Shown here in pieces: positions 757-8,871 of a stretch of 20,301 nt of DNA. The position numbers and the translations under genes were made by a program. Positions within the stretch are counted from its first letter, which is position 1, and each line of letters opens with the position of its first letter. Source of the DNA: a virus; the IMG/VR virus record IMGVR_UViG_3300010354_000887, positions 1 to 20,301 of that record. One strand, given 5' to 3'. The notes below the pieces were generated by a model. It was not told the DNA's origin, made no database searches, and saw only the letters and a program-made list of their open reading frames with translations.

Positions 757-1447
757 CTTGCTGCTCTCCCAGCCAGTATTTCCTGGCCTCATCTGGATCT
801 GTCGGGATCTGGCGCGGGTGTGGCTGCCGCAGATAGTTACCGGTGTTGATCGGCGTGGCGCGCTGCGGCGTTGCGCGGCGCAGCCAGTTCCGCGCAAAGG
901 CGTCGTAGTCCTTGTACGTCTTGCCGGTCGCCGCGAGCCAGTCGCGCATGGCGATGTGCTCGGCGGCGAGGTTCAGGTTGCGCTCCTTGGCGATGGCGAT
1001 GTGGTCTTCCTTCGGCATCCAAGAGTCAAAGGACTGGACGGCCTTTGGCTTCCGCTTCGGCTTGGCCGGAGCGGGCGACTCCGCAGGAGGCGCAATACTT
1101 CTCTCTCCTGTCTGATCTGTTGTGTTGTGTTGTGTAGCCGTTACATCACGTGTCGTAACGTTACGTAACGTTACATCACGTGACGTAGCGTCACGCTTGC
1201 GGCTTCGATTCGTACGAGCGCGCTGCGCGAGCTGTACGGTGATGAGGTCGTCGAGGGTGCGCCACAGGTTCAGCTCGACGAGCTTCGGCTTCCAGTGCGC
1301 GAGCTCCGCCGGAGGCTCGTCCTCCTCGTGACGCACACGGTGCTCGGTGATGCGGAGGTGCGCGAGCACAAGCTCGACCTGCCCGAGTGTCAGAAGCATC
1401 GCGATTCGCGCGTCATCAGCGAGGTCTTGTCGGTACCATCCTGCCAT
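731..1447 (-). CDS. Phage replication initiator (lambda O / DnaT-like)
   Basis: 238 residues. I chose the second ATG (1447) because GGGAG lies 6 bases before it; the first ATG at 1453 abuts that GGGAG. The N-terminal ~75 residues look helical and may hold a winged-helix DNA-binding domain. Then comes a low-complexity linker with four pentapeptide repeats of the form xR(D/N)(V/A)T and a Pro/Lys-rich stretch. The C-terminal part (WMPKEDHIAIAKE... MRDWLAATGKTYKDYDAFARNWLRRA) is the conserved W/RNWL domain found at the end of many phage replication proteins, where it is thought to contact the loader or helicase. The DnaC-like gene follows with an overlap, giving an initiator-loader pair. The linker DNA appears to be the origin itself. 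Confidence 0.75.
   Translation of the reverse strand: MAGWYRQDLADDARIAMLLTLGQVELVLAHLRITEHRVRHEEDEPPAELAHWKPKLVELNLWRTLDDLITVQLAQRARTNRSRKRDATSRDVTLRNVTTRDVTATQHNTTDQTGERSIAPPAESPAPAKPKRKPKAVQSFDSWMPKEDHIAIAKERNLNLAAEHIAMRDWLAATGKTYKDYDAFARNWLRRATPQRATPINTGNYLRQPHPRQIPTDPDEARKYWLGEQQDEPRFDFG
1118..1198. other. Candidate replication origin inside the initiator gene
   Basis: Four tandem 15-bp repeats (1139-1198) lie beside a TGTGT tandem run (1118-1137) and a pyrimidine-rich stretch (1091-1117). This block is visibly poorer in GC than its surroundings. In lambda-type phages the origin, with iterons bound by O and an adjoining easily melted segment, sits within the O gene between the codons for its two domains. 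The arrangement here is the same: repeats in the linker of the initiator. Inference from layout; binding and origin activity are untested. Confidence 0.6.
1139..1198. repeat. Four 15-bp tandem repeats (iteron-like) with 20-bp palindrome
   Basis: On the plus strand the units begin at 1139, 1154, 1169 and 1184. Units 1 and 3 are identical over 14 bases (CGTTACATCACGTG); unit 2 is CGTAACGTTACGTAA; unit 4 is more diverged (CGTAGCGTCACGCTT). Bases 1155-1174 form a perfect 20-bp palindrome made of two GTAACGTTAC copies. Units 1 and 3 each carry the palindrome CACGTG. Because the unit is 5 codons long, the minus-strand gene encodes KRDAT-SRDVT-LRNVT-TRDVT. Confidence 0.85.
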
Positions 1448-8855: not shown

Positions 8856-8871
8856 CGTTTCACGTGAAACA
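8856..8871. promoter_or_regulatory. parS-like site (ParB-binding)
   Basis: CGTTTCACGTGAAACA matches 15 of 16 bases of the common chromosomal parS sequence TGTTTCACGTGAAACA; the inner 14 bases (8857-8870) are a perfect palindrome. ParB CTPases bind this word, load as clamps and spread along DNA; ParA then moves the complex. A 14-base word is expected by chance in 20 kb with probability of roughly 1 in 10,000 or less. It is intergenic. No second copy was seen and no ParA/ParB gene is present in the window. Confidence 0.75.

Follow-up and report, generated by a model that had tools for sequence, protein, structure and literature searches.

How can a replication origin lie inside a protein-coding gene, and, where it does, is it the DNA or the protein that sets the sequence there? 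The question is raised by a stretch of viral DNA of 20,301 nucleotides, which we call the window, in which the gene of a putative replication initiator carries a tandem repeat in the segment encoding its linker. A preliminary description had placed the phage's origin in this segment, as an array of in-frame pentapeptides. We find this location supported, not proven, and consider it likely that the segment is the replication origin of the phage, situated within the initiator gene itself, where this codes for a linker predicted to be disordered, and bound by the initiator's basic helix.

The initiator gene, its predicted domains and the adjoining loader gene

The initiator gene occupies positions 731 to 1,447 on the minus strand and encodes 238 residues counted from the sequence MAGW. 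We take the start to be most likely at 1,447 rather than at 1,453, from where the reading frame is open, because MAGW is common to five homologues and GGGAG lies upstream. Homologues of the window's initiator were found in contigs L001, L020, L150, and L151; searched as a whole against Pfam, PHROG, and NCBIfam, the protein has no match.

AlphaFold2 models, of low to moderate overall confidence, predict an N-terminal helical domain (residues 1–64; 1,256 to 1,447, minus strand) of three helices, with a pLDDT of about 90 over residues 10–60, for which fold searches with the window model gave no relevant match. The last helix associated with this domain (residues 65–90) runs through a basic segment, AQRARTNRSRKR (residues 74–85; 1,193 to 1,228, minus strand), which belongs to its last part, and is followed by a linker predicted to be disordered (residues 86–138; 1,034 to 1,192, minus strand; pLDDT under 50). 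From the model and from comparison with other initiators, we propose the basic segment as the DNA-recognition element.

The remaining part of the protein includes a DnaT-like domain (about residues 139–192; 872 to 1,033, minus strand), which we propose binds single-stranded DNA or contacts the loader, on the basis of profile comparisons and matches of its relatives. A C-terminal stretch of 70-odd residues weakly resembles phage O and replication initiation proteins (E 1e-3 to 6e-3), including the O protein of a Klebsiella phage (E 6e-3). The profile of its domain group (A8) reaches DnaT structures, E. coli DnaT among them (E 0.017), and the Pfam DnaT family (PF17948) is matched by 4 of 9 aligned relatives (best 6e-6), the window's own domain having no match. 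Pairwise BLAST between the C-terminal domains of the window and of another initiator, L213, found nothing, and the two are connected via intermediates. The AlphaFold2 model of L213 has one long helix (residues 15–50; pLDDT about 90), which stops where the array-coded segment begins, and a well-predicted C-terminal domain whose top structural match is the complex of DnaT with single-stranded DNA (4ou6; Z 5.4, rmsd 3.5 over 66 residues, 21% identity); the Z score is middling, and coverage and function agree with the profile and Pfam results.

Directly downstream, at 97 to 756 on the minus strand, lies a gene matching phrog_50 (1.1e-9) and phrog_3277 (1.7e-7), both annotated as DnaC-like helicase loader. 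Its first 26 bp lie within the 3' end of the initiator gene, and L001 has an equal overlap.

A 5-bp unit underlies the repeat

The four 15-bp tandem units of the preliminary description are present on the coding (minus) strand, from 1,195 down to 1,136 (CGTGACGCTACGTCA, CGTGATGTAACGTTA, CGTAACGTTACGACA, and CGTGATGTAACGGCT), with pairwise identities of 10–12 of 15 positions and the peptides RDATS, RDVTL, RNVTT, and RDVTA, but the real DNA unit is CGTNA, of 5 bp. The segment from 1,139 to 1,193 agrees with 11 successive copies of CGTNA at 40 of 44 fixed letters; the next-best place in the window reaches 22, and in 200 simulated windows (first-order Markov) the maximum score averages 23 and is never higher than 26. 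The array is thus far above chance. We propose the in-phase array (1,139 to 1,195, minus strand), which has ACGT cores every 5 or 10 bp and encodes RDATSRDVTLRNVTTRDVT, as the iterons of the origin. A perfect 20-bp palindrome, GTAACGTTACGTAACGTTAC (1,155 to 1,174), lies within it as described previously, is a run of CGTAA/CGTTA, and is the only one in the 20.3-kb window.

The TGTGT run also reported there corresponds to a second 5-bp array, which is strand-asymmetric (TGTTG x3.6 with 100% match; 1,118 to 1,135, minus strand; ACACA on the coding strand) and which we propose as part of the unwinding region. Its place is taken by AGACG x3 in L150 and by ACAGK (ACAGT/ACAGG) repeats in the L003/L024 family. 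The 100 bp of lowest GC content in the window (1,094 to 1,193) have 45% GC, against a mean of 67%. As a single strand, the array could form a long hairpin that leaves the ACACA side open (z only -1.95).

Elsewhere in the window, at 8,856 to 8,871, between leftward and rightward gene blocks, we observe a parS-like site, CGTTTCACGTGAAACA, which agrees at 15 of 16 positions with the bacterial parS consensus, TGTTTCACGTGAAACA. No such site was seen in the examined parts of L001, L002, L020, L150, and L151.

The repeat reads as a similar peptide in every frame

Translation of all (CGTNA)n combinations shows that each of the six frames encodes R-[NDHY]-V-T-[SL/stop] in one rotated form or another. 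The pentapeptides and the 15-bp period follow from the 5-bp DNA unit, so that the in-frame reading, which is real, is no independent coincidence; it is automatic in all six frames, and a unit of exactly five codons, formerly put forward as a special feature, is arithmetic. The sole coding demand of (CGTNA)n is the avoidance of a stop at the TNA codon, where the window has TCA, TTA, ACA, and GCT. Origin DNA of this kind can therefore sit inside a gene with stops alone to avoid, since the repeat reads R-[ND]-V-T-[SL] in every frame.

Selection on the DNA would be expected to show at synonymous sites, and the preliminary description had suggested comparing their conservation here with that in the rest of the gene. 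Between the window and L001, whose N-terminal parts are 91% identical, synonymous codon changes number 2/49 in the linker and 67/149 outside it (Fisher p=2.3e-8), and synonymous sites here are indeed the more conserved. Amino-acid changes within the same linker (RN to HD, that is R>H and N>D, and R>K) argue that the block is not simply identity from recent transfer, although in this one pair a recombination patch could be its source. In the diverged pair L020/L151, linker codons are identical at 17 of 17 positions, with 34/63 and 13/20 in the flanks, and other pairs pooled, which are not independent of one another, have identical codons at 83 of 108 linker positions against 292 of 625 outside. 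Codon use differs as well: Arg is CGT in 15 of 18 cases in the linker and 15 of 112 elsewhere, and Ser is TCA in 7 of 8 and 2 of 44, respectively.

CGTNA arrays recur among phage initiators

The repeat is not the peculiarity of this phage that it had appeared to be. Searching IMG/VR for exact matches to CGTNACGTNACGTNACGTNACG returned 25 stretches, and searching it for two TMACGTKA palindromes side by side returned 35, most of them falling in genes that code for a basic segment followed by an RDVTS-type linker. Many of the array genes tested match PHROGs that differ from one another (phrog_270, 1408, 16167, 678, 3926, and 9474), with annotations such as "replication initiation", "primosomal", and "O-like". 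We collected 29 initiators, in nearly all of which the array follows a basic helix; they fall into up to 14 clusters by N-terminal part and 9 by C-terminal part (single-linkage BLAST, the short parts limiting sensitivity). Of 135 spacings between successive ACGT cores, 117 are multiples of 5, a proportion inflated by the loci having been partly picked by their array. By these sequence criteria, CGTNA-type arrays recur across many phage initiator families. One locus, L025, has an array with no clear basic helix.

A pattern scan of bacterial genomes found chiefly pure (CGTCA)n or (CGTGA)n runs, mostly not in initiators. Since such runs are common and a phage contig, L010, also has (CGTGA)n, the array could be imagined as a functionless pentanucleotide microsatellite grown by slippage. 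We find this hardly credible: the bacterial runs are homogeneous and lie mostly outside initiators, whereas the units in the window are not near-identical, the N position differing from unit to unit. In phage initiators generally, variation at this position yields palindromes such as TCACGTGA and TTACGTAA, and the array persists in diverged homologues.

The motif is also found outside initiators, in L008 and L194/L195 (RNase HI-like genes), L013 (non-coding), L010, and L019. Within RNase HI-like phage genes, the CGTNA array lies in the regions 3,970–4,620 of L194 and 10,741–11,385 of L008; in L013, at about 1,090–1,130, a CGTCACGTGACG array is non-coding and lies upstream of a terminase-small-like gene. 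L021 has ACGT cores in its initiator linker and, in the leader only a few bases upstream of the ATG, a second CGTNA array that is non-coding, and L011, with an initiator of the same type, has an additional array at the 3' end of the loader gene along with ACGT cores inside the initiator gene.

These loci bear on what is being selected. That the R-D-V-T repeats work as protein, with the DNA repeat secondary, might be suggested by an RDVT pattern common to many initiators, yet the codons are drawn from a single set although many synonyms would serve, contrary to usage in the rest of the gene, and synonymous sites are frozen. The linker is moreover predicted to be disordered, and the groups of L227 and L229 (see below) encode other peptides at this place. 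A function of the linker peptide gives no explanation for the arrays of L021, L011, L008, L194, and L013, and we regard selection on the peptide as highly improbable. The proposal that DNA iterons dictate the protein linker is upheld by the frozen codons, by the non-coding array of L021, and by the arrays of L011, L008, and L194 in other genes. The linker's protein sequence as a by-product of the DNA repeat is well supported by these sequence comparisons.

The same loci would suit an array that is an operator, through which the initiator or another regulator controls transcription of the initiator-loader operon while replication starts elsewhere. The arrays just before the initiator ATG in L021 and at the end of the loader gene in L011 are at positions suited to autoregulation, and that of L013 precedes a gene. 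In the window and most relatives, however, the array lies in the middle of the gene, next to the tract of lowest GC and not where a promoter would be placed, and L021 and L011 too keep ACGT cores within the initiator gene. We therefore consider it unlikely that the array is an operator instead of an origin. An array can combine the two roles, as happens in iteron plasmids, and a dual role that includes that of operator is possible in L021.

CGTNA appears to be one iteron type among several, since other in-frame repeats occupy the equivalent linker in L171, L178, L181, and L182, and initiators of phages and prophages picked by their C-terminal domain are mostly without CGTNA arrays. In L181 (538–1,515; Gordonia phage BrutonGaster), the initiator linker consists of two successive in-frame arrays, SDTQSDYQ and then PLTPKP/PLAPKP repeats. 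In L002 (5,007–5,699), we observe a C-terminal domain 89% identical to that of the window, with an unrelated N-terminal part, basic helix, and linker; this linker contains three ACGT-core palindromes at 10–12 bp spacing, without a 5-bp array. L027 was searched for in the class to which G002 belongs, and none of 297 genomes gave a match. As a probe for prophage initiators, phrog_270 was dropped, having matched 10 of 14 control genomes.

Repeat type changes together with the basic helix

We fetched relatives of one N-terminal domain, A6, by a peptide pattern taken from A6 alone; the query for BLAST confirmation included the basic helix, which gives some pull to the basic motif and none to the array DNA. 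Every one of the 14 relatives whose basic motif is [DE]xxR[QKS] has a CGTNA-type array (15–19 of 20 letters), compared with maxima of 11–13 of 20 in control pieces of the same loci. Seven of these 14 contigs were also among the results of the array scans, and the 7 new ones (L211, L216, and L219–L223) also carry the array.

Six further relatives, of three helix types in pairs, have other basic helices and other repeats at the equivalent position. L215/L217 have GTAACGC repeats with inverted GCGTTAC. L227/L228 (1,501 onward) have a dyad-symmetric, origin-like array of three GCGTCAC at 10-bp steps and then inverted GTGACGC, which also scores 15 of 20 against CGTNA. L229/L230 (about 1,610–1,645) have three TCGTACGA palindromes at 9–10 bp spacing after the basic helix REYDREYQRERR. 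In L226 and L231 (1,501 onward), the N-terminal domain and basic helix are directly followed by an HNH endonuclease-like domain, with no array in the linker.

L223 and L227 are nearly identical in their N-terminal domain and C-terminal half, yet neither the helix nor the iteron is the same in the two. When similarity of the N- and C-terminal parts is controlled for, helix similarity and linker k-mer similarity remain correlated (partial Mantel test, r=0.70, p=2e-4). Judged in this way, the candidate iteron type covaries with the predicted basic helix adjoining it. The effective sample is small because the alternatives are three pairs of closely related loci, and cassette exchange without co-adaptation is possible because helix and array adjoin.

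Domain shuffling is visible in several comparisons (L002 with the window, L020 with L150, and L223 with L227), and the linker might accordingly be a recombination joint, its repeat DNA kept for swapping initiator domains between phages. Such a joint leaves the joint change of iteron and helix, the low-GC tract, and the leader array of L021 unexplained, and we rate it as very unlikely.

A model of the proposed origin

The reading that we prefer, an origin within the initiator gene bound by the initiator's own basic helix, suggests the following order of events. The CGTNA array would present palindromic sites with ACGT cores, set half a turn (5 bp) or a full turn (10 bp) apart, which the initiator may grip with the end of the basic helix encoded just upstream of the array. 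Phased binding of several initiators could build an O-some-like nucleoprotein complex, and the adjoining low-GC, strand-asymmetric ACACA tract would then melt. The DnaT-like C-terminal domain may hold the single-stranded DNA, and the overlapping next gene would supply the DnaC-like loader, which, judging by the families involved, would bring the host helicase DnaB.

Should this model hold, sequence by itself could suffice to find many phage origins that now lack annotation. The puzzle of an origin within a gene would have an arithmetical answer here, in that the 5-bp iteron codes for a similar, tolerable peptide in each frame. The four basic helices found on a single N-terminal domain, each paired with its iteron (TCACGTGA, GTAACGC, GCGTCAC, or TCGTACGA), would form a natural series for decoding origin choice, and the natural chimeras would predict the outcome of helix or iteron swaps.

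Comparison with known systems

bZIP transcription factors recognise ACGT-core palindromes such as TGACGTCA and TTACGTAA. Window-type initiators resemble them in their ACGT-core sites, in the basic end of a long helix, and in the similar spacing of some residues, but the order is reversed, the helical part here being N-terminal to the basic part; in place of a leucine zipper C-terminal to the basic region, the models show the end of the basic helix and then the disordered linker. Comparison of basic-region peptides and a profile with Pfam and PDB for bZIP gave nothing significant: bZIP_1 is the best match for 1 of 10 peptides (L198; 15.8 bits, E 0.015, under the 27.6 cut-off), and the window peptide has none. 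We treat the resemblance as a lead only. A broader conjecture, which we think unlikely, is that many unrelated-looking phage initiators share a bZIP-like mode of DNA reading, in which a helical, probably dimerising domain with a C-terminal basic helix (motif [ND]-x-x-R-Q-x-x-[YFWHK]-R) would grip ACGT-core palindromes encoded immediately downstream within one and the same gene, helix and origin forming one exchangeable cassette aided by the frame-neutral 5-bp code.

The C-terminal domain invites comparison with the single-stranded DNA-binding domain of DnaT (primosomal protein I; PF17948, PDB 4ou6), which the profile of its group reaches. DnaT binds single-stranded DNA and links to DnaB/DnaC (PMC4132743). 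The window's domain differs in that it has no PF17948 match when taken alone and is fused to a putative origin-binding module. For extrachromosomal mycobacteriophage prophages of the RepA-like kind, the portion of the published account that we draw on infers an origin within or next to the initiator gene (repA), likened to that of lambda, and that portion describes no CGTNA-type array or covarying basic helix (PMC7157519). Our literature search did not find a CGTNA motif or a 5-bp intragenic phage origin, by which absence is not proven.

The closest parallel is lambda gene O, in which iterons lie mid-gene with an AT-rich tract beside them and the loader gene next (PMC7466680). The parallel with the lambda origin drawn in the preliminary description holds for the anatomy: in the window, iterons lie inside the initiator gene, a low-GC tract adjoins them, and an overlapping loader gene follows directly downstream. 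Iterons that shape a protein also have a precedent, because O variants of Stx phages are lengthened by 13 residues through two extra iterons (PMC7466680). The window differs from lambda in its frame-neutral 5-bp repeat with an ACGT core, in an N-terminal domain predicted to be helical with a basic helix, in a loader that is DnaC-like, and in an initiator that as a whole has no profile match to O; its iteron is unrelated to lambda's, and the DNA-binding element probably differs too. Iterons inside an initiator gene are already known from lambda O. New, as far as the searched literature shows, is a 5-bp, frame-neutral iteron with an ACGT core that is spread over many initiator families and appears to pair with the adjoining basic helix.
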